NCBI GenBank assembly: GCA_944376225.1 | Contig: CALWBZ010000045.1 | Span: 1 to 32,395, forward strand | Origin: an uncultured Clostridia bacterium | GTDB lineage: Bacteria; Bacillota; Clostridia; Lachnospirales; Bianqueaceae | DNA: 32,395 nt | Direction: 5' to 3' | Shown here: piece by piece, positions 11,242-31,960 of the stretch | How the letters are laid out: each line of letters starts with the position of its first letter | How positions within the stretch are numbered: position 1 is the stretch's first letter | The notes under the pieces: model-generated | Told to the model about the DNA's origin: nothing | Seen by the model: the letters and a program-made list of their open reading frames with translations, nothing else | Databases searched by the model: none | Made by a program: the position numbers and the translations under genes

Positions 11242-11270
11242 ATCATATCAGCAAAAACCCGGTCTGTCAA
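11242..11270 (-). promoter_or_regulatory. pyrH operon promoter, overlapping the end of the GH3 gene
   Basis: On the minus strand TTGACA (11270-11265) and TATGAT (11247-11242) are 17 bases apart, about 40-70 bases before the pyrH ATG. The -35 and spacer are also the last codons of the glycosidase gene (ending LDRPGFC-stop); the -10 begins right after its TGA. Confidence 0.85.
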
Positions 11271-13842
11271 GTGCTATTGCCGTCATGTAGCCGCCTAAGC
11301 CGGCAAACTGCTCCGAATAACTCACCGCGCCTTCGTACCTATCCGTCTGCAGGATGATCCGCACCGTGTTCCATACGCATCGCTTAAGGTCCCGAAGATC
11401 CAGCGTCCCCGCCTCCAGTTCCGCCCGGAGGTTCTCAAAGTCCATCTCCATCCCCGGCATGATCATGTCGTTGCCCGCCCGCATGCAGCCGGCGGCCGTA
11501 CACTCCCCTATGGGCGTGGCGTTCGTGGTGGTCCAGTCTGTCATGACGACTCCCGAAAAGCCCCACTCGTCCCGGGCGATCCGGGTACACAAATCTTTAT
11601 TGTTGGCCGCGTGGACGCCGTTAATCATATTGTAGGAAGTCATGATGGCCATGGGCTGGGCGTCTTTTACGGCAATCTCGAATCCCTTAAGGTAAATCTC
11701 CCGCAATGTTCGTTCCGACAGGACGGAGTCGGATCCCATCCGGTACTCCTCCTGATTGTTGCAGGCAAAATGTTTGACGGTGGTTCCCCTTCCCGGAACC
11801 GACTGCACCCCTCGGGTCACGGAAGCGGCCATGATGCCGGACAGGAGCGGATCTTCTGAATAATATTCGAAATTGCGGCCGCACAGCGGATTCCTGTGGA
11901 TGTTCATGCCCGGCGCCAGCCACAGATCCACCTGGAAGAGCTCCATCTCCCGCCCGATCATCGCGCCCACTTCTTCTAAAAGCGCCGGGTTCCATGTCTG
12001 CGCCAGAACCGTTCCGACGGGGAGGGCCGTACAATATTGATAATAGGTGGTTCCGCGTTTCTCCTTTTTCCGGGAAAAGAACCCTCCCTCGAAGGAGGCC
12101 AACGAATCCCGCCCCACAATCTGCCCGTCTTCCACCTGATAGGTCTGATGGAGCCGTATGCCCGCGGGGCCGTCCGCCAGCACAATGGGCGCTACGTTCC
12201 AAGGCTCCTCTGCGGCGGCGGAAGAGGTCTCCGCGGCGGATCCGCACACCTGCTTGCCCGCCGCTCCCAGGGCCCCGGTTTCCTGCTTTTTGCTCGGTTC
12301 TCCGCAGGCAAGACGAATCAGCTGCTCCACGGAAAGGCTCTCTACGATCTCGCCGGCCCTGCCGGACAAAGCCTGTTTCTCCGTTGTATAAGTAGCGGTT
12401 TTCGAGGGCAGATCCGCCGCCGCGATCTCCACGACAGGCAGACTCTCTGCCTCTTTATGCCAAAGGGCTTCCCTCTCCCGCACGCGCCGTGCCTCCGGGG
12501 CGAGTTCTTCCATAGGACGCCTCAGCGGGCAAACCGGCGCGCAGCGCATCCACACATGATCTAAGTCGAGGCGCAGGACGCCTACCAATCGGGCGGACTC
12601 CAAGGAGTCTCCCACCCATACGCCGTAATCCCCCGCCTCCAGAATCCAGGAAGAACTCCCCTCGTCATAAGAGGCCAGCTGCTCGACCAAAACCGAGATC
12701 GAAAGCTCCTGGGACGCCCCGGGAGCCAAAAGGCCGGTCTTGCCGAACCCCACGAGCCTGCGAAACTCCTTCACGAGTCTCCCTTGGGGACAGGAGACAT
12801 ATACCTGCAAAATCTCCTTGCCGGCGTATTTTTCTCCCGTGTTGACCACGTCCGCGCGAAGGTCTATTCTTTTCCTCTCCCGATCCCAGGAAAGCCGGGG
12901 ATTCTTCCAGGCAAAACTCGTGTAGGAAAGACCGTATCCGAAACCGTACCGCACCGGCACCTGAAACGTGTCGAAATACCGATAGCCCACGTAGATCCCT
13001 TCCCGATACTCCTCCAGTTCCACATGATCGCTGTGATAACTGTAGGTCGCCGCGTTGGGATAATCCTCATAGGCTCTGGCCCAGGTATCCGTCAGTTTCC
13101 CGGAAGGCGTCACATCGCCGGATAATACGTCCGCCAGCGCGTTTCCTCCCTCCTGTCCCGCTTGCCCGTAATCGAGCACCGCCTGAATCTTGGGATAACG
13201 CTCCAAAAAGCCCAGATCCACGACGCCGCCCGTATTGAGGACTAGGATCAGACGCTCGTAGGCCCGTTCCAGCTGACCGAGCAGCGCTTCTTCCTCATCG
13301 GTCAGGTAATAGTCTCCCTTCGCGTCATGCCGATCCGCGTTTTCTCCCGCCACCCGGGCCAAGACGAAGATCGCGATATCCGCGCCGTCTTCACTCGCGA
13401 GCGCTTCGTCGATCACAGGCCCTGCCGGCGCCTCGTAGGGCGTGGTGGAATAGGCGTTAAAGAAGTTACCGCCCATCTCCTCCATCTTCCGCAGCACCTC
13501 GTCCCTCCAGGACTCCCGGGAACGCCTGTAAATCTCCTCGTATTCTTTTAACCAGGCCTCGCTCGTGACCCTATATCCTCCGCCTATGAGGCCCTCCGCT
13601 ATGCTGACCGAGGCGCGCTCATTCACATCGCCGGATCCTGTGCCTCCTTTGACCGTACACACCGCGCCGCTGCCATACAGGCCGATCTTGGTCCCCCTCG
13701 CCATCGGGAGAATCTCCCCTTCATTCTTAAGAAGCACAAAACCTTCGGCCGCCGCGCGTCTGGCCAGAAGTCCGTGTTCTGTTTCCCGCTTTGTTTTCTC
13801 CGGCGACGTCGTGCCGTTCCATCTTCTTTCTTTTATCTTCAT
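11248..13842 (-). CDS. Glycoside hydrolase family 3 with permuted domain order (beta-glucosidase-like)
   Basis: A cytoplasmic 864-residue GH3 enzyme; no signal peptide is visible. The usual order is reversed. The alpha/beta sandwich domain comes first (AAAEGFVLLKNEGEILP, about 30-300), then a fibronectin-III-like domain (about 330-420), a linker near 450-590, and the TIM-barrel domain last (about 590-845). The barrel has the LADGPAGIR motif, KHFACNNQE, and the nucleophile in VVMTDW (Asp769). Such permuted GH3 proteins are known in rumen and gut Clostridia. Substrate is uncertain; a beta-glucoside is likely. The start is the ATG after GGGGGGACAAGGC; the longer frame would overlap the upstream gene by about 200 bases and lacks family sequence there. 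It lies 16 bases after the disulfide reductase and is probably co-transcribed with it. Confidence 0.9.
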   Translation of the reverse strand: MKIKERRWNGTTSPEKTKRETEHGLLARRAAAEGFVLLKNEGEILPMARGTKIGLYGSGAVCTVKGGTGSGDVNERASVSIAEGLIGGGYRVTSEAWLKEYEEIYRRSRESWRDEVLRKMEEMGGNFFNAYSTTPYEAPAGPVIDEALASEDGADIAIFVLARVAGENADRHDAKGDYYLTDEEEALLGQLERAYERLILVLNTGGVVDLGFLERYPKIQAVLDYGQAGQEGGNALADVLSGDVTPSGKLTDTWARAYEDYPNAATYSYHSDHVELEEYREGIYVGYRYFDTFQVPVRYGFGYGLSYTSFAWKNPRLSWDRERKRIDLRADVVNTGEKYAGKEILQVYVSCPQGRLVKEFRRLVGFGKTGLLAPGASQELSISVLVEQLASYDEGSSSWILEAGDYGVWVGDSLESARLVGVLRLDLDHVWMRCAPVCPLRRPMEELAPEARRVREREALWHKEAESLPVVEIAAADLPSKTATYTTEKQALSGRAGEIVESLSVEQLIRLACGEPSKKQETGALGAAGKQVCGSAAETSSAAAEEPWNVAPIVLADGPAGIRLHQTYQVEDGQIVGRDSLASFEGGFFSRKKEKRGTTYYQYCTALPVGTVLAQTWNPALLEEVGAMIGREMELFQVDLWLAPGMNIHRNPLCGRNFEYYSEDPLLSGIMAASVTRGVQSVPGRGTTVKHFACNNQEEYRMGSDSVLSERTLREIYLKGFEIAVKDAQPMAIMTSYNMINGVHAANNKDLCTRIARDEWGFSGVVMTDWTTTNATPIGECTAAGCMRAGNDMIMPGMEMDFENLRAELEAGTLDLRDLKRCVWNTVRIILQTDRYEGAVSYSEQFAGLGGYMTAIALDRPGFC

Positions 13843-13858
13843 GCCTTGTCCCCCCTTT

Positions 13859-15562
13859 TTATTCCTCATGAATCGGCAGCCCGCAGGAATGACTCGGAAC
13901 CGGGTTACACTCCTGATCCTCGCAGATGAGCGCGTAATATCGGTAGCCTCCGATGAGGTTATAACAATCAAAACCTTTTTGCGCCAGAATCCGACAGGCC
14001 AGGTAACTGCGCAGACCGCTCTGACAGTTGACATAGACTCTCTTGCCCCTGTCAAGCTCTGAAAGCCGTTCCCGCAGACCGTCTAGCGGAATATGCACCG
14101 TTCCCGGGATGTGTCCCGCGGCATACTCCTTGTCCGTGCGCACATCGAGCAGGGTCACGCTTCCGTCCCGGGGCAGACTCAAGGCTTCTTTCCAGGTATA
14201 CTGCTTCACCAAACCTTCCCGCACGTTCTCGATGACATAACCGGCCATGTTGACGGGATCCTTCGCGGAGGAAAAGGGCGGCGCGTATGCCAGTTCCAAT
14301 TCCGCCAGCTCCTCCCCCGTCATCCTGGCTCTGATCGCCGCGGCAAGCACATCGATCCGTTTATCCACCCCTTCAAATCCGATGATCTGGGCTCCCAGGA
14401 CCTGCCCGGATTCTTTATGAAAGATGACCTTCAGCGTCATATTGGAAGACCCGGGGTAATAGGCCGCGTGGGAAGGCGAAAACGTGATTACGTAATCGTA
14501 GGGGATGCCCGCCTCCTTCGCGCCTTTTTCGTTTAGTCCTGTGGACGCGATACTCATGTCGAAAAGCTTCAGGATGGAGGAACCCTGACTCCCCCGGTAA
14601 GAACTCCCCCGCCCGCATATATGATCCGCCGCGATCCGTCCCTCTTTATTGGCCGGCCCCGCCAGCGCGATCCAGGCCGGCTGTCCGCTGACAAAATGCC
14701 TGACTGTCACGCCGTCTCCCACCGCGTAAATGTCCGGATCCGAGGTCCGCATATGCTCGTCTACCACGATCGCTCCCCGAAGACCCAGATCGAGTCCCGC
14801 CTCCTTCGCGAGCCAGTTTTCCGGGCTGACGCCTATGGCTAACAGCACCATGTCGGTTTCCAGCGCCTCCTCACCTTCGATCTGCACGGTAAGCCCCTGT
14901 TCTGTCTTTTCAATCCCCGTCACCCTTTGCCGGAACCTGAGATCGACGCCCCGTCCCCGCAGATAAGCATGCACGCCGCAGGCCATGTCGTAATCTAGAG
15001 GCGGCATGACCTGATCGCTTTTTTGCAGGAGCGTCGTTCTGATTCCTAAGCCCAGGAGATTTTCCAACATCTCCAGCCCGATGAATCCGCCGCCGATTAC
15101 CGCCGCCCTTTTGGGCTTCTTCTCCTCGATCCATTCCCGGATGCGCCATGTGTCTTCCACCGTCCGCAGGGTGAACACTCCTTCCTGCTCTACCCCGAAG
15201 ACGGCGGGCTTTACGGCCGATGCTCCCGGAGATAGGAGAAGCTTATCATACCCTTCCTCATAGGTCTCCCCCGTCTTAAGATCGCGGATTTGGACCTTTT
15301 TTTCTTCCCTTCGGATCCGAATCACTTCCTGATGAACCCGCGCCTGGATGCGGAATCGCTTCCAGAAGCTCTCCGGCGTCTGCAGGGTGAGATCTTCCTT
15401 TCGCGTAATCACGCCCCCAATATAATAGGGCAGCCCGCAATTCGCGTAAGAGATATAACCGCTGCGCTCGATAATCGTGATCTCCGCCGACTCATCCAGC
15501 CGTCTGAGCCGGGCCGCCGCCGTCGCGCCGCCCGCGACGCCTCCCACAATGATGACCTTCAT
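13859..15562 (-). CDS. CoA-disulfide reductase-like flavoprotein fused to a rhodanese domain
   Basis: A 567-residue pyridine-nucleotide disulfide oxidoreductase. The N-terminal FAD motif is IIVGGVAGGATAAAR; the single active cysteine is Cys42 in YANCGLPYY, typical of CoA-disulfide reductase and NADH oxidase relatives; a second GxGxxG-type NAD(P)H motif lies near 157 (AVIGGGFIGLE). After the dimerisation domain a rhodanese domain (about 465-545) carries the active-site loop CQSGLRS (Cys513). This fusion matches known CoADR-Rhd proteins that reduce CoA disulfide or persulfides and polysulfides. A role in thiol redox or sulfur handling is likely; exact substrate cannot be read from sequence. ATG with AAGGAGAG upstream; divergent from the ATPase gene. 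Confidence 0.9.
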   Translation of the reverse strand: MKVIIVGGVAGGATAAARLRRLDESAEITIIERSGYISYANCGLPYYIGGVITRKEDLTLQTPESFWKRFRIQARVHQEVIRIRREEKKVQIRDLKTGETYEEGYDKLLLSPGASAVKPAVFGVEQEGVFTLRTVEDTWRIREWIEEKKPKRAAVIGGGFIGLEMLENLLGLGIRTTLLQKSDQVMPPLDYDMACGVHAYLRGRGVDLRFRQRVTGIEKTEQGLTVQIEGEEALETDMVLLAIGVSPENWLAKEAGLDLGLRGAIVVDEHMRTSDPDIYAVGDGVTVRHFVSGQPAWIALAGPANKEGRIAADHICGRGSSYRGSQGSSILKLFDMSIASTGLNEKGAKEAGIPYDYVITFSPSHAAYYPGSSNMTLKVIFHKESGQVLGAQIIGFEGVDKRIDVLAAAIRARMTGEELAELELAYAPPFSSAKDPVNMAGYVIENVREGLVKQYTWKEALSLPRDGSVTLLDVRTDKEYAAGHIPGTVHIPLDGLRERLSELDRGKRVYVNCQSGLRSYLACRILAQKGFDCYNLIGGYRYYALICEDQECNPVPSHSCGLPIHEE

Positions 15563-17516: not shown

Positions 17517-18434
17517 TTACTGGCCCATCTGCTTCGCAACTTCCGCGGCGAAGTCTTCCTGCTTCTTCTCGATGCCTTCGCCGGTCTCGTAACGAACATA
17601 ACCCGTTACGGTGACTTCGCATCCGACTTCCTTGGATACCTGCTTCAGGTACTTGCCAACAGTCAGCTCGTCATCGCGGAAATATACCTGATCCTGGAGG
17701 CAGTACTCCTTCAGCTCCTTGTTCAGACGGCCTTCCACCATCTTCTTCAGGATCGCCTCGGGCTTACCCTCCTTGGAGGCCTGCTCCATCAGGATCGCTC
17801 TCTCATGCTCCAGGAAATCCTGGGGCACGTCATTGCGGGTGTTATAACGGGGATTAAGCGCCGCAACCTGCATCGCCACATTCTTGGCCGCTTCCTTAAC
17901 CGCGTCGTTGACGATTTCGCTGCTCACATTCACCAGAACCGCGATACGTCCGCCGCCGTGCACATAGGCGCCCACATAGCTGTCGCTCTTGACCTGCTCG
18001 AAACGGCGAATCTGAAGATTCTCGCTGATCACGGCCACCTTCGCCACCAGCGCGTCCTTTACGCTGATGCTGGGATCCTTCTCCCAAGCTTCCGCCATGA
18101 AACCGTCCATATCCGTCGCCTTCGTATCCAGCGCCTGATGGGCCACATCCGATACGAACTCCTGGAAAATCGCGTTCTTCGCGACAAAGTCGGTCTCCGA
18201 GTTTACTTCCACGATGGCTCCGGTCTTCTGATCTTCCGATACCGCGACGGCCACCAGACCCTCGGCGGCGATGCGGCCGGCCTTCTTGGCCGCCGTAGCG
18301 ATACCCGCCTTACGAAGGTACTCGATGGCGGCGTCCATATCGCCGTCGCTAGCCGTAAGAGCCTTCTTGCAATCCATCATACCCGCGCCAGAGATCTCGC
18401 GCAGTTCCTTAACCATAGCTGCTGTAATATTCAT
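17517..18434 (-). CDS. tsf: Elongation factor Ts
   Basis: Nucleotide exchange factor for EF-Tu, 305 residues. The N-terminal UBA-like domain has the family signature LREISGAGMMDCKKAL; the core contains SETDFVAKN. The C-terminal residues continue the dimerisation region without truncation. ATG preceded by GGAGGGAA. It follows rpsB by 32 bases. In most Bacillota pyrH comes next; here the minus-strand run is instead closed by a terminator and a three-gene block intervenes. Confidence 0.97.
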   Translation of the reverse strand: MNITAAMVKELREISGAGMMDCKKALTASDGDMDAAIEYLRKAGIATAAKKAGRIAAEGLVAVAVSEDQKTGAIVEVNSETDFVAKNAIFQEFVSDVAHQALDTKATDMDGFMAEAWEKDPSISVKDALVAKVAVISENLQIRRFEQVKSDSYVGAYVHGGGRIAVLVNVSSEIVNDAVKEAAKNVAMQVAALNPRYNTRNDVPQDFLEHERAILMEQASKEGKPEAILKKMVEGRLNKELKEYCLQDQVYFRDDELTVGKYLKQVSKEVGCEVTVTGYVRYETGEGIEKKQEDFAAEVAKQMGQ

Positions 18435-18466
18435 GCTCTTCCCTCCGAAATGTGTAGGATCAATGA

Positions 18467-19225
18467 TTACTCGTCTTCCTCTTCCGCAGTCTCAACCGCG
18501 GCCTCTTCTTCCGCCTCGGTATCCTCGGCGGCGCTCATCTGCTCGCCCTGGTTCGCCTCGATGACGGCGTCGGCGATCGTAGAGGCGATCAGCTTCACCG
18601 CGCGGATGGCGTCGTCGTTTCCGGGGATTACGTAATCGATCTCATCGGGATCGCAGTTCGTATCCACAATACCCACCAACGGGATATCCAGGATATGAGC
18701 TTCCTGAATCGCGATGTGCTCCTTACGAGGATCTACTACAAAGATCATGTCCGGAACATCCTTCATGTCGCGGATACCGTTCAGGTTCTTCTGCAGCTTG
18801 TCCAGCTCCGCCTTCAGATTCAGTACTTCCTTCTTCGGCAGGATATCAAAAGTGCCGTCCGCCTCCATCGTCTCCAGCTCGATCATACGATCGATACGGC
18901 TGCGAATGGTCTTGAAGTTGGTCAGCATACCGCCCAACCAACGGTTGTTAACATAATACATGCCGCAGCGCTCGGCCTCGCTCTTGACAGCCTCCTGCGC
19001 CTGCTTCTTGGTGCCGACGAACAAGATCTTGCCGCCTTCGGCAGCCACTGCCTTCACCGCCGCGTAAGCCTCGTCCACCTTACGGTTGGTCTTCTGCAGG
19101 TCGATGATATAAATGCCGTTACGCTCCGTAAAGATATAAGGAGCCATCTTGGGGCTCCATCTTCTGGTCTGATGTCCGAAATGCACGCCGGCTTCCAGAA
19201 GCTGTTTCATAGAAATAACACTCAT
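18467..19225 (-). CDS. rpsB: 30S ribosomal protein S2
   Basis: Small-subunit protein of 252 residues. The N-terminal [22 protein letters not shown] and the [12 protein letters not shown] region are typical of S2. The C terminus ends in a glutamate-rich tail, common in Clostridia. A longer open frame exists, but the start was set at the ATG with GGAGGGAAAG directly upstream and S2 homology immediately after it. A structured leader and a strong promoter lie upstream. Confidence 0.97.
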
Positions 19226-19260
19226 GTCTTTCCCTCCGCTAATTTTGTTTTTCCTCCTTG

Positions 19261-19313
19261 TTCGGCCGTTTTCACGTCCCACCCCGTCGGGGCACCGAGA
19301 CGTTATGACCGAA
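19261..19313 (-). promoter_or_regulatory. Structured 5' leader of rpsB, candidate S2 autoregulatory RNA
   Basis: The rpsB leader of about 115 bases folds into a 53-base imperfect hairpin. The outer helix is TTCGGTC/GGCCGAA, followed by an internal loop, the middle helix ACGTCTC/GGGACGT, another small loop, and a terminal CCCC/GGGG helix. Both 7-bp helices contain a single G-T wobble. No T tract follows, so it is not a terminator. Feedback control by ribosomal protein S2 is a reasonable hypothesis. Confidence 0.6.
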
Positions 19314-19347
19314 AAGTGTGGATTTGCCCTCTTTCGGGCCGTTCTTT

Positions 19348-19376
19348 AGTATACCGGATTTCCTGGGAAAAATCAA
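19348..19376 (-). promoter_or_regulatory. rpsB-tsf promoter
   Basis: On the minus strand TTGATT (19376-19371) and TATACT (19353-19348) are 17 bases apart. The -35 overlaps the stop codon of the upstream sigma gene, so rpsB-tsf can be transcribed independently of codY. Confidence 0.8.
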
Positions 19377-20101
19377 GTACAATTTTCCCTTTCTTCCAAA
19401 TTATTTTTCAGACAGGCCAAGGCTTCTTCCAGATCCTGTTTTATCTTCCATCGTGATTTTGACCGTGCTTCGCTGATTTTGCGCAGGGACTTCTCTTCAT
19501 AAAAATAGTCCACGACTGTTTCGTAGTATGGGGACGGCAGGCCTTTTAGCATATTTTGTAAGTCCTGCTGTCGGCGGGGATCCTCCCATGGCTCCGACTG
19601 TTCCTTTCTCGCCGCCCCTTCCGCGGGACATCTTAGCCCGTAGAGTTCCATACGACAAAGCATCAGGCGCTGACACAGGATCTGATATTTTCGCCAACCG
19701 ATTCCTATTTCTGACGCGATCTCTTCGTGAGTGGGTTCCCGTTTCAGCTGTTGACACAACCGTTCCCGACATTTTTCATACGCCCTCTTTTTCTGATACA
19801 GCCTCCGGGGAATCCCCGTGCCGGCTTCCATTCCTTTCCGCATTTGATAACGGATTTTAGGATACGCGTATGCCGGAAAATGAGGGCTTAACCTGGGGTT
19901 AAATCCTTCCACTGCCTCGATCAATCCGATGACTCCGCAGGCAAACATGTCTTCCTCCTCTGTCTGCCACGGGATATGGCCCCGGACGCGTTCGACGCAT
20001 TGCCGGACCAGATCGATATACTGCCATACCAAGTGGTTCCGCTGTTCCGTCTTTCTTTCTTGTAAGTAAACGCTCCAATATCTTGTCTCATCCTGTGTCA
20101 C
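19373..20101 (-). CDS. Sigma-28 (FliA/SigD)-like sigma factor with divergent region 4
   Basis: A 242-residue sigma-70 family protein. Region 2 is recognisable (WQYIDLVRQCVERV ... EEDMFACGVIGLIEAVEGF ... YAYPKIRYQMR), as is region 3 (REPTHEEIASEIGI). Region 4 (about 190-236) keeps a LP..Y..V..YFYEEKSL..I frame but lacks the glycine turn and the usual EIG..LG.S..RVSQ recognition helix, reading ISEARSKSRWKIKQ. It lies between codY and rpsB, exactly where B. subtilis ends the fla/che operon with sigD. No flagellar gene remains here. The start is GTG with an in-frame TAA just upstream and only a weak GAG ribosome site, so expression may be low. It may be a decaying relic or a repurposed factor. 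Confidence 0.8.
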   Translation of the reverse strand: MTQDETRYWSVYLQERKTEQRNHLVWQYIDLVRQCVERVRGHIPWQTEEEDMFACGVIGLIEAVEGFNPRLSPHFPAYAYPKIRYQMRKGMEAGTGIPRRLYQKKRAYEKCRERLCQQLKREPTHEEIASEIGIGWRKYQILCQRLMLCRMELYGLRCPAEGAARKEQSEPWEDPRRQQDLQNMLKGLPSPYYETVVDYFYEEKSLRKISEARSKSRWKIKQDLEEALACLKNNLEERENCT

Positions 20102-20138
20102 ATTTTACGGAGCTCTGCCTGTATGAACCCGCCGTTAA

Positions 20139-20906
20139 TCAGATATTGCCATACTTCTTCAGTTCGTCGCGAAGAGCAGAATTTAGGATCCGGATGTATG
20201 TGCCCTTCATCCCCAAGGATCTGGACTCGATGACTCCCGCGCTCTCAAACTTACGCAGGGCATTCACGATGACCGACCGGGTGATTCCCACCCGATCGGC
20301 AATCTTACTGGCCACCAAGAGCCCTTCCTCGCCCTCTAACTCCTGAAAGATATGAAGAATTGCCGCTAATTCGGAATAAGACAGGGTCGCGATCGCCGCC
20401 TGGATCGCTTCGTTTTTCTTTTTCTCCTGCTCGCTCTCCTGATAAATCGCCTGCGCCAGTTCCCTGGCCACCACCAGAGAGATAAATTCCACTAAAATCA
20501 ATTCGTCCGGCGTATAGTCTCCCTCCTGCCGGCAGATGATCAGCGTTCCTATGCGCTGCCCGGCGGAATCCAGCGGAATGAGCACGCTTTTTACGATCTC
20601 GTCTTTGGTTCCCACGCCAAAGGATCGCAGGTCCGCGTTCTCCGTAATCTCCGTAATGCGGTTTAAGGAACCGGCCCGACGATCTGACACCGACGTGCCC
20701 TTCTCCCAATACGCTTCCAGCACCTCCGGTTCCTCTTCGTAACGAAATACCGAAAGCGCCTTGCCCTTCTGGGAGAGGATCAATACGCTGGAGGACAGCA
20801 TCTCCGCGCAGAGCGCGGAAATCTCCTCGAACATCAGCGGATCCATTCCCGCTTTCTTCACCAAACTATGAATACTCCGTACTTTCTTCAGCAATTCTTC
20901 GTTCAT
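20139..20906 (-). CDS. codY: GTP-sensing transcriptional pleiotropic repressor CodY
   Basis: Global nutritional regulator that senses branched-chain amino acids and GTP and represses biosynthetic, transport and often competence genes. The 255-residue protein has the N-terminal GAF ligand-binding domain (about 1-155), a linker helix, and the highly conserved winged-helix domain around 199-240 containing ASKIADRVGITRSVIVNAL and SLGMKGTYI. ATG is 16 bases after the topA stop. It is co-oriented with dprA and topA, as in B. subtilis, although hslVU, xerC and trmFO are absent here. Confidence 0.97.
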   Translation of the reverse strand: MNEELLKKVRSIHSLVKKAGMDPLMFEEISALCAEMLSSSVLILSQKGKALSVFRYEEEPEVLEAYWEKGTSVSDRRAGSLNRITEITENADLRSFGVGTKDEIVKSVLIPLDSAGQRIGTLIICRQEGDYTPDELILVEFISLVVARELAQAIYQESEQEKKKNEAIQAAIATLSYSELAAILHIFQELEGEEGLLVASKIADRVGITRSVIVNALRKFESAGVIESRSLGMKGTYIRILNSALRDELKKYGNI

Positions 20907-20922
20907 TCGAACCCTTATCCTT

Positions 20923-22992
20923 TCATTCTGCCTGTTCGCTGTATCCGCATTCTTTAGAGGAACATACGAACCTCGTATTTTTTCCTTTTTTCTCTACCAT
21001 ATAAGATCCGCATTTGGGACATTTTTGGGCAACGGGTTTGTCCCAAGACACGAAGTCACATTCCGGATGCCTGGAGCAGCCGTAAAATACTCTTCCCTTA
21101 CGGGACTTGCATACCTGAATCGGCGCCCCGCATATCGGACAGGGCACATCTAAAAGTTCCTGGTATGGCTTGGTGTTTCTGCATTCCGGAAATCCCGGAC
21201 AGGCATAGAATTTACCGTACCGTCCGGTCTTAAGAACCATGTTGCGGCCGCATTTCTCGCAGATTACGTCCGTGACCTCGTCTTCGAGCTGAACCTTCTC
21301 CAGTTCATTAGACGCCTTTTCCACCAGAGGTTCGAAACCGACGTAAAAATCCTGCAATATGGTTCGCCAGTCCACCTCGCCCTCTTCCACTTTATCCAGT
21401 TTTTCCTCCATACCGGCCGTAAAGCGAATATCCACGATCTCCGAGAAATACTGGCTGATCATCTGGTTCACGATCATCCCCAGTTCGGTGACATAAAGCA
21501 CCTTTTTCTCTTTGGCCAGATAGGTTCTGGCGATCAGCGTCGCTATAGTGGGCGCGTAAGTGCTGGGACGGCCCACGCCGTTATCCTCCAACGCCTTGAC
21601 CAGCGCCGCTTCCGTATAACGGGGAGGGGGCTGGGTAAAATGCTGCTGCGGCTCTACGGACTTCATCTGCACCTCGTCCCCGGTCTCGAGGCCTTCGATG
21701 GTCTCGAACTTCTCCTGCTCTTCCTCTTGCTCTTTATAAACCTGGAGGAAGCCCGCAAACACCAACTTGGAGCCCGTAGAGGTAAACTCGAATCCATCTT
21801 TTTCCAGGATGATCTGCAGCGTATCATACACCGCGGCCGCCATACGGCTCGCCACAAAGCGCTCGTAGATCAGCTTATACAGACGCATCTGATCTCTGGA
21901 CAGGCTTTCCTGCACCTTGATCGGGGTGTATTGCATATACGTGGGACGAATGGCCTCATGGGCGTCCTGTATCCGCTGTCCCGCCGGCGCGGCCTTGACC
22001 TGTCCTACATACTCCTGCCCGTATTGCTGAGCAATCATCTTGACCGCCGCCTCGTGTGCCTCCTCCGCGATACGGGTGGAATCGGTACGCAGATAGGTGA
22101 TGAGTCCCACCGTTCCGCCGCCCACATCCACGCCCTCATAGAGCTGCTGCGCGATCTGCATCGTTTTCTGGGGAGAAAAACCGAGCCGCTTTGAGGCCTC
22201 CTGCTGCAGGGTGCTGGTGGTAAAGGGAAGCGGCGGCCGCCGGTTTCTTTTACCCTTTTTTATGTCCTTCACAAAAAAGCTGCCTACTGCCCGGATACGT
22301 TCGATCAGCTCTCTCGCCTCTTCTTCCTTATGGATCTCGGGCTTTTCCTGACCCACTTTGGAGAGCCTGGCCAAAAGCGTTCCTTTGGCTTTTTTCTTAT
22401 TAAACTTTCCCTCGATAGTCCAGAACTCTTCCTGGACGAAATCCTGGATCTCGTTTTCCCGGTCGCAGAGAAGCTTGAGGGCGGCGGACTGCACGCGTCC
22501 GGCGCTCAGGCCCTTGCGCACCTTCTTCCACAAAACGGGGCTCATTTTATAGCCCACGATCCGGTCCAGCACACGCCGGGCCTGCTGGGCGTCCACCAGG
22601 TTTTGATCGATCCCCCGCGCCTGTTTCAGCGACTTACGCACCGCGTCCTTCGTGATCTCGTTGAAGGTAATGCGTTTGGTCGTTTGTTCCGGCAGATTCA
22701 GCACGTGAGACAGATGCCAGCTGATGGCTTCTCCCTCACGGTCCGGGTCCGTCGCCAGATAGACACGGTCCACCTTATGCGCCTCTTTCTTCAGACGGCT
22801 GACCAGATCCCCTTTGCCTCTGATCGTGATATATTTGGGTTCAAACCCGTGTTCGACATCCACGCCCAACTGACTCTTGGGAAGATCCCGCACATGTCCG
22901 TTGGAGGCGATGACCTCATAATTGGAACCAAGAAATTTCTGGATTGTCTTCGCCTTTGCCGGAGACTCTACAATAACCAGATTCTTTGCCAT
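20923..22992 (-). CDS. topA: DNA topoisomerase I
   Basis: Type IA topoisomerase relaxing negative supercoils, 689 residues from the chosen start. The Toprim domain begins NLVIVESPAKAKTI and contains TDPDREGEA. The active tyrosine lies in ITYLRTDS (Tyr300). The C terminus carries three four-cysteine zinc modules (CEKC..C..C, CPIC..C..C, CPKC..C..C). Two ATGs are possible. The AAGGAG at 23008-23003 is only 1 base from the first (22999-23001) but 10 from the second (22990-22992), so the second, starting MAKNL, is preferred. It lies 18 bases after dprA. Confidence 0.97.
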   Translation of the reverse strand: MAKNLVIVESPAKAKTIQKFLGSNYEVIASNGHVRDLPKSQLGVDVEHGFEPKYITIRGKGDLVSRLKKEAHKVDRVYLATDPDREGEAISWHLSHVLNLPEQTTKRITFNEITKDAVRKSLKQARGIDQNLVDAQQARRVLDRIVGYKMSPVLWKKVRKGLSAGRVQSAALKLLCDRENEIQDFVQEEFWTIEGKFNKKKAKGTLLARLSKVGQEKPEIHKEEEARELIERIRAVGSFFVKDIKKGKRNRRPPLPFTTSTLQQEASKRLGFSPQKTMQIAQQLYEGVDVGGGTVGLITYLRTDSTRIAEEAHEAAVKMIAQQYGQEYVGQVKAAPAGQRIQDAHEAIRPTYMQYTPIKVQESLSRDQMRLYKLIYERFVASRMAAAVYDTLQIILEKDGFEFTSTGSKLVFAGFLQVYKEQEEEQEKFETIEGLETGDEVQMKSVEPQQHFTQPPPRYTEAALVKALEDNGVGRPSTYAPTIATLIARTYLAKEKKVLYVTELGMIVNQMISQYFSEIVDIRFTAGMEEKLDKVEEGEVDWRTILQDFYVGFEPLVEKASNELEKVQLEDEVTDVICEKCGRNMVLKTGRYGKFYACPGFPECRNTKPYQELLDVPCPICGAPIQVCKSRKGRVFYGCSRHPECDFVSWDKPVAQKCPKCGSYMVEKKGKNTRFVCSSKECGYSEQAE

Positions 22993-23010
22993 ATTTTCCA
23001 TACTCCTTAC

Positions 23011-31052: not shown

Positions 31053-31496
31053 TTAATTACCATGATTATATGCAGTAAAATTAAGATCAAAGGCCAGAAC
31101 ATGCAGAATAAAGCTATGTTGCAGATCTGGTTTGCAAAGCATTCTTGCCTTTTGTTGATTAAATCTTAAAACAAAGATCTTACTATCTTCGGAAATAATA
31201 GGGCATTCCTTCATGTGATTTTGAAGAGATTCGCTCAACTCCTTTACCGGAATGCTTTCAATCCCTGTCCTTTTATCCCTCATCATCAAATCAAGCATCG
31301 TCAATTTTGACCATTCTCTCAATTTGTCCATAAAATCCAAGGCGTATTCGGCTTGTTCTCTTGTCTTCAAAACATGAAAAGTATAGTCCTTTTTGTCAGT
31401 AAAATACTGAAAACTAAAACGGATGGGGGCAGCGTTGGAACGTTCTTTGCTGATGGTGGGGCCGTTCTGGTTTTTAATGTTTTTGACGCTTTTCAT
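31053..31496 (-). CDS. Putative toxin partner of the Panacea-domain protein
   Basis: A 147-residue soluble protein with no motif I can name. It resembles hypothetical proteins paired with Panacea proteins: an N-terminal FSFQYF segment, a central YALDFMDKLREWSKLTMLDLM helix region, and a C-terminal core ending in a hydrophobic strand and FDLNFTAYNHG. The ending, an Asp-x-x-Phe-x-x-Tyr-x-His-Gly pattern, suggests a small beta-rich fold of the RelE/HigB-like or RNA-interacting sort, but this is only a guess. Its ATG overlaps the upstream stop by 4 bases (ATGA). Lower GC than the core genes suggests acquisition by transfer. Confidence 0.65.
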   Translation of the reverse strand: MKSVKNIKNQNGPTISKERSNAAPIRFSFQYFTDKKDYTFHVLKTREQAEYALDFMDKLREWSKLTMLDLMMRDKRTGIESIPVKELSESLQNHMKECPIISEDSKIFVLRFNQQKARMLCKPDLQHSFILHVLAFDLNFTAYNHGN

Positions 31497-31960
31497 TGTT
31501 CGATATAGTTTTTCTTGAAATACTCTTTCATGGTCTGTCGGTCAATGATACCATTTAATACTTCTCCATTATGTGTCGCATCCTTCCAGGGCTTTTCTTG
31601 ATGCGTCATATTCCGCAAGCCCCATGCGCTATATTGCCCGAATACATTATAGACCATTTCCAGAATCTGCGCATCCTTTGGAGCAATTTCTCTTGCTGCG
31701 TCTTCGGCTTCTTCGTCACAGGGAAGATGAAACGGATCTGCGTTATAGTGATGATAAACAGAGGGCACAACGGGACCGTGCTCCCATGCGATAATGTTGT
31801 CCTCAAATAAGGAACCATTATCCAATGCCAGCGAGCAACCTTCTGCATAATACAGTAGCTTTAACAGTTTTAGCAGCGAGAGATCTTCGCCGTCTCCGGA
31901 TGCTTTTTCGAACTCATTACGCACAATGAACCATTGAGCAACTTTAAGTGCATCATACAT
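31493..31960 (-). CDS. Panacea-domain (DUF4065/SocA/GepA-like) protein, probable antitoxin
   Basis: A 155-residue protein matching the Panacea domain: an N-terminal helix (VAQWFIVRN), LSLLKLLKLLYYAEG, the core IIAWEHGPVVPSVYHHY, and a C-terminal MTHQEKPWKDA. Panacea proteins neutralise many unrelated toxins (PanAT systems); SocA acts as a proteolytic adaptor for its toxin. Gene order here is antitoxin first, toxin second, in a two-gene operon with overlapping codons. ATG with AGGAGGTG upstream and a very strong promoter. The gene and its partner are AT-richer than the neighbouring housekeeping genes. Confidence 0.85.
   Translation of the reverse strand: MYDALKVAQWFIVRNEFEKASGDGEDLSLLKLLKLLYYAEGCSLALDNGSLFEDNIIAWEHGPVVPSVYHHYNADPFHLPCDEEAEDAAREIAPKDAQILEMVYNVFGQYSAWGLRNMTHQEKPWKDATHNGEVLNGIIDRQTMKEYFKKNYIEQ

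Follow-up and report, generated by a model that had tools for sequence, protein, structure and literature searches.

The window, by which we mean the whole stretch of 32,395 nucleotides that was analysed, is one entire contig (G000:C45) of a metagenome-assembled genome from UBA1390, a family of gut bacteria (Lachnospirales). The assembly comprises 2.49 Mb in 142 contigs and is 94.6% complete. The minus strand encodes, in this order, dprA, topA, codY, an intact gene of the sigma-70 family (242 aa), rpsB and tsf, where topA and rpsB are names that we presume from the sequence (Table 1). The sigma gene starts 37 bp after the end of codY, and its stop codon is followed after 147 bp by the rpsB ATG at position 19225. 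In GTDB, as given in PMC8035907 and PMC11334427, the family UBA1390 sits in the Lachnospirales and the genus UBA1390 is named Candidatus Faecimorpha. The genus-mate in our comparison set is G001, and the window is assigned to this group through its kinship with G001.

A preliminary description of this DNA had noted that codY, a single sigma gene and rpsB are adjacent, that the sigma gene is full length without stop or frameshift, and that its ribosome site is weak. These observations hold. The ORF is open from a GTG start codon with no internal stops, an AGGAGG-like run is missing immediately 5' of the GTG, and the adjacency is not due to chance, since 17 family genomes carry the same gene immediately ahead of rpsB and one more has it behind codY.

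Table 1 Features of the window and of the encoded sigma factor (limits of sigma regions 2, 3 and 4 as set by us)
Feature	Position	Strand	Evidence or remark
Orphan FliA-derived sigma gene	19373..20101	(-)	242-aa ORF, GTG start; best NCBIfam models, family orthologues, tree
Sigma region 2	19817..20044	(-)	aa 20-95; core-polymerase-binding part kept; -10 contact positions K82, K89, E92 vs R, D, R in motile relatives
Sigma region 3	19640..19816	(-)	aa 96-154; weak in window protein
Sigma region 4 with helix-turn-helix	19397..19579	(-)	aa 175-235; recognition helix begins at aa 217
codY, upstream neighbour of sigma gene	20139..20906	(-)	HTH_CodY, 106.7 bits
topA (presumed), next neighbour upstream beyond codY	20923..23001	(-)	ORF; conserved in family
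rpsB (presumed), downstream neighbour of sigma gene	18467..19225	(-)	ORF
Sigma-A-like promoter of rpsB	19348..19376	(-)	TTGATT-17-TATACT; consensus scan
rpsB leader	19237..19323	(-)	Conserved CACAC and GGAGGAAAAAACC-like ends
Overlapping ORFs	31053..31960	(-)
ORF of this pair	31493..31960	(-)	SocA/Panacea antitoxin-domain protein, 77.2 bits
Partner ORF	31053..31496	(-)	No Pfam family at E 1e-5
Glycosyl hydrolase family 3, permuted	11248..14055	(-)	Glyco_hydro_3_C at 107-358 before Glyco_hydro_3 at 674-889

Elsewhere in the window, a permuted glycosyl hydrolase is encoded, and the two overlapping ORFs are perhaps a toxin-antitoxin pair.

Profile searches recognize the sigma protein at low scores. 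Pfam regions 2, 3 and 4 reached 16.7, 24.0 and 20.3 bits, each below the gathering score, and the top NCBIfam models, WhiG (88.9 bits, cut-off 343) and FliA_WhiG (87.9 bits, cut-off 189.6), both remained below their cut-offs. An AlphaFold2 model from a four-sequence alignment (mean pLDDT 76.6, pTM 0.60) contains a C-terminal helix-turn-helix formed by helices 206-213 and 217-241. Foldseek searches with this model retrieved sigma factors, including WhiG as the second hit and sigma-28/FlgM as the seventh, at modest TM-scores of 0.3-0.5.

To place the protein among sigma factors, a maximum-likelihood tree was calculated from 18 family sigmas, 13 FliA proteins of motile relatives and 8 other sigmas, which we take to be SigF-, SigG- and SigA-like from length and context. 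The 18 family sigmas form one clade (97/90), and together with the motile FliA they stand apart from the 8 other sigmas (100/99), in a tree with several very long branches. TIGR02479 (FliA_WhiG) matches 18/18 family sigmas with the best E-value, and the position between codY or the fla/che genes and rpsB is common to the family sigma and the FliA of motile relatives. Judged by tree and position, the family sigma is a descendant of FliA; judged by the curated cut-off and the contact positions described below, it is not a standard FliA.

Searches for flagellar and chemotaxis markers covered the own genome and 40 relatives, 18 from the same genus or family and 22 from the same order (family n=19, order n=22). 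FlhA and CheW were each found in 0/19 family genomes vs 19/22 order relatives, and FlgM above cut-off in 0/19 vs 18/22; matches to FlgM below cut-off occurred in four family genomes (E 0.015-0.043). Flagellin, searched in the own genome alone, gave a single match below cut-off at E 0.38. In six of the eight motile relatives examined, codY is followed by ~30 kb including flhA and then by the sigma gene, with rpsB 2.6-4.2 kb further on in five of these six. In the motile relatives G030 and G019, the latter with its sigma gene at a distance of 1.5 kb to rpsB, the sequence retrieved did not contain codY. The markers missing in the family, together with the codY-flhA-sigma order in motile relatives, indicate that the family lost the fla/che genes, and this loss predates the present species. 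The data thus fit the scenario suspected from the window, in which the fla/che block would have been lost and its last regulator kept. The counter-scenario raised at the same time, flagellar genes elsewhere accompanied by a second, normal FliA, did not materialize, as the own genome yielded no further FliA of normal type.

We next turn to the retention of the gene. rpsB was found in 18/19 family genomes; G002, 66% complete and without an rpsB match, does not enter the retention count, and a match in this genome was rejected as an orthologue because it is a SigG-like gene. In 17 genomes, rpsB is immediately preceded by an intact sigma-like ORF, with lengths of 180-271 aa. In the eighteenth, G009, the sigma gene follows codY, and rpsB sits on a different contig, where an unrelated ORF precedes it, indicating that the place was rearranged there. 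The sigma ORF is open and kept in 18/18 family genomes in which rpsB was found. A contig scan with the sigma protein as query found no relative. A second scan with topA as query returned five loci, three of which belong to G001 (L127), G009 (L128) and G007 (L129); L130 and L131, where neither sigma nor rpsB was found, were not counted.

The surroundings of the gene vary within the family. Between topA and sigma, codY is missing in 13 genomes that keep sigma (four g3, G005, G012 and seven g5; loci L095, L096, L097, L099 and L101-L109 of g3, g4 and g5). A second rpsB contig of G017 (L111 = G017:C126), left out of the counts, carries topA, codY and rpsB without a sigma gene between codY and rpsB. 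Its topA is 52% identical to that of the window; the contig is probably foreign, from another organism, and probably also an example of sigma gene loss.

As controls, 30 of 71 FlhA-negative genomes outside the family were drawn from an order sample of 245, with FlhA-negative status for 21/30 inferred from absence among listed positives. A sigma-like ORF within 1.5 kb upstream of rpsB was found in 0/30, where the available stretch was short for G116 (~0.7 kb) and G160 (~0.1 kb). Because the sigma gene of motile relatives lies 1.5-4.2 kb from rpsB, the stretches were extended for 29/30 controls (28 of 3.5-6.8 kb, G116 0.9 kb; G160 was left at ~0.1 kb), and no FliA-like gene was present in these 29. 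Sigma genes at the control loci L251 and L261 were taken for sporulation-type genes by their sequence resemblance to SigF and were not counted as FliA. A FliA-grade match was not found anywhere in the 30 controls, the best reaching 4.7e-21, where six motile controls gave values of 4.8e-70 to 1.0e-92. The same query yields only 1.8e-9 (G000) to 7.7e-25 (G003) with the family sigmas, so that an equally diverged copy elsewhere in the controls would not stand out; these genomes do carry sigma genes of 235-263 aa at other places. In the sampled sister lineages, then, the sigma gene disappeared from this place along with the flagella.

Pairwise dN/dS was determined with a custom codon-model script for six pairs. 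Values were 0.166, 0.153 and 0.166 for three g3 pairs, which are not independent, 0.311 for g5, 0.113 for g4 and 0.150 for G000/G001; dS is saturated in the g4 and G000/G001 pairs, and the weight rests on the four pairs with dS < 1. A dN/dS of 1 was rejected in 6/6 pairs (likelihood ratio 12.2 to 110.1). When neutral evolution was simulated with substitutions only at the observed dS, the frame stayed open in 10/3000, 158/3000 and 0/3000 runs. The sigma gene is kept by purifying selection. This backs the initial suggestion that it is maintained, and the ratio near 1 named as a sign of neutral decay was not observed. The dN/dS of sigma is above that of topA, rpsB and tsf, and the ratio of sigma dN to topA dN amounts to 1.6, 1.7 and 1.7 (g3), 6.9 (g5), 3.3 (g4) and 10.6 (G000/G001), while in two of the three g3 pairs the rate of change of dprA matches or exceeds that of sigma. 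The constraint, weaker than on topA, may reflect partial relaxation.

Residues R74, D81, R84 and R91, promoter contacts of E. coli FliA, were placed on the family sigmas by counting along the chain alignment. These positions read RDRR in 13/13 motile relatives and K82, K89, E92 and R99 in the window sigma, with R99 corresponding to the kept R91. All four residues are kept in 0/18 family members, and G018 from another genus carries the same K, K, E and R, so some of the changes recur. The recognition-helix signature of the 13 motile relatives, SESR-SQ-H-KA, reads SRWKIKQDLEEAL in the window sigma; among the 18 family sigmas its E is retained in 0/18, Q in 1/18, R in 4/18 and A in 16/18. The region 2 landmarks G and A are present in 18/18 and D in 17/18, and further positions that do not vary among the motile relatives are lost as well, which points to fast evolution of the whole protein and not of the contacts alone. 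Identity of the recognition helix is 12-14/17 in four close pairs, 7-9/17 in three wider same-genus pairs and 3-4/17 between G000 and other genera (three comparisons), a divergence just slightly steeper than that of the remainder of the protein. The preliminary description had called region 4 degenerate and without its usual recognition-helix pattern. The pattern is indeed altered, with a helix-turn-helix still predicted, but regions 2 and 4 are recognized by Pfam in 18/18 family sigmas, so that "replaced" is a better word than "degenerate". Region 3 is detected in 6/18 and undetected in 12/18 family orthologues, vs detection in 12/13 motile relatives. Some family sigmas are short, with 220-221 aa in four g3 proteins and 180-206 aa in six of seven g5 proteins. 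The window protein retains a weak region 3 and helices in the model, and hence differs from the ECF two-domain build of regions 2 and 4 with no region 3.

Matches to the sigma-28 promoter pattern TAAA-N14-16-GCCGATA were counted in 25 genomes, using reversed and scrambled patterns as controls. The 11 family genomes contained 42 matches vs 48 reversed and 45 scrambled, the 14 motile genomes 118 vs 103 and 103, and the own genome 5 vs 0 and 9. Counts of TAAA / GCCGATAA promoters are not above the controls in the family, nor clearly so in motile genomes, which hardly stand out.

Promoters in the locus were located by a consensus scan, which returned 3 sites in the scanned stretch vs 1.7 expected. 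The first hexamer of the rpsB promoter holds the stop codon of the sigma gene; the promoter is conserved in G001 and has similar counterparts in other genera. With a sigma-A-like promoter of its own, rpsB probably needs no orphan sigma. No promoter-like site was detected upstream of the sigma gene up to position 21000, and codY lies directly ahead, which makes read-through from topA/codY the likely source of sigma mRNA. When folded singly, the rpsB leader forms a long, strong hairpin in 17/17 family genomes compared, at energies of -20 to -36 kcal/mol and with differing stem sequences. Consensus folding on the sequence alignment gave no pairs, and Rfam no match within 18000-21500 of the window; an S2 autoregulatory leader is possible.

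The reading that we consider probable from these comparisons is that of an orphaned FliA which, devoid of FlgM and under purifying selection, would bind RNA polymerase and read new, non-flagellar promoters. An ancestor of the family would have lost FlgM together with the fla/che genes that once separated codY from sigma; the sigma gene stayed in place and is kept by purifying selection. Through region 2 the protein most likely continues to bind core RNA polymerase, and it most likely directs a small set of non-flagellar genes, with region 2.4, region 3 and the region 4 recognition helix presumably rewritten along different lineages of the family. Without FlgM, the protein would probably be controlled by a low level of transcription reading through from topA/codY. 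The scores below cut-off, the constraint weaker than on topA, the divergence beyond the contacts, a recognition helix that diverges little more than the remaining protein and the weak ribosome site count against this reading. A more specific version, which we regard as plausible at somewhat less than even confidence, holds that the promoter-reading surfaces were rebuilt lineage by lineage after loss of flagella and anti-sigma factor, and that some lineages shed region 3 and turned a three-domain sigma-28 into an ECF-like two-domain sigma. The family would then represent natural steps toward a new sigma specificity, with the ancestral position of the gene as their anchor.

Other explanations have to be weighed against the orphaned, respecified FliA. 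It is unlikely that the sigma keeps sigma-28 specificity and serves a non-flagellar part of the ancestral regulon, e.g., cell-wall hydrolases. Autolysins of B. subtilis are controlled by SigD. Retention of R99, partial conservation of region 2 and the 5 pattern matches in the own genome vs 0 reversed would agree with an old specificity, but K and E stand in place of the contacts D81 and R84, the recognition-helix signature is gone, the scrambled pattern reaches 9 matches in the own genome, and the 11 family genomes fall below the reversed control. In favor of old specificity, the repurposed relative WhiG is described as sharing flagellar promoter specificity (PMC8325347). We regard it as distinctly unlikely that the gene is a slowly decaying, functionless leftover: fast divergence, the weak ribosome site, the frequent failure to detect region 3 and a dN/dS above that of topA, rpsB and tsf could be read this way, but a dN/dS of 0.11-0.31, frames open in 18/18 genomes that neutral simulation rarely keeps, and the disappearance of the gene from sampled flagella-less sister lineages all argue against decay.

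It is very unlikely that the protein has given up transcription initiation and instead regulates by binding polymerase or DNA, e.g., by competing with other sigma factors; changed contact positions and eroded region 3 are compatible with such a role, while regions 2 and 4 recognizable in every family sigma and the predicted helix-turn-helix speak against it. That a different sigma of sporulation, stress or horizontally acquired origin landed at the place of FliA is hardly credible. The scores below curated cut-offs and many long tree branches would allow it, but the place is identical to that of FliA in motile relatives, the tree groups the protein with FliA apart from the 8 others, FliA_WhiG gives the best E-value throughout the family, and the SigF- and SigG-like genes of the own genome lie elsewhere.

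Compared with known systems, the family sigma resembles FliA/SigD (sigma-28) in chromosomal position, clade, three-region build and best NCBIfam group. Unlike FliA/SigD, it occurs without flagellar or chemotaxis markers or FlgM, its contacts and recognition helix are changed, and its score lies below the cut-off. Legionella oakridgensis, going by the title of a study cited in PMC12199754, is reportedly non-flagellated with FliA kept and FlgM present; the sigma is kept without flagella in both cases, with FlgM there and in 0/19 genomes above cut-off in the family. WhiG of Streptomyces and Rubrobacter is described as a flagellar-clade sigma in another process, Streptomyces being non-motile (PMC8325347, PMC4598750). 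WhiG likewise acts apart from flagella, but it keeps flagellar promoter specificity, whereas the specificity positions of the family sigma differ; a further feature of WhiG is the anti-sigma RsiG with c-di-GMP binding. In Chlamydia trachomatis, described as non-motile (PMC4598750), sigma-28 is similarly kept, with a known and reportedly very small regulon of hctB and tsp (PMC12282069). In one survey, 41% of the genomes of non-motile bacteria gave FliA hits (PMC12199754). No description of the present gene was found in our literature search. Repurposed flagellar-clade sigmas in non-motile bacteria are thus known already from WhiG and Chlamydia; what sets the present case apart is that the gene persists throughout the family in its ancestral position without FlgM, vs its loss in the sampled sisters, and that specificity positions are altered and region 3 is eroded.

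If the orphaned FliA indeed reads new promoters, the 18 positional orthologues together with the motile sister set would provide a series for testing how new promoter specificity evolves in a sigma factor. For genomes from the gut, the presence of a FliA-type gene would then not count as evidence of motility.
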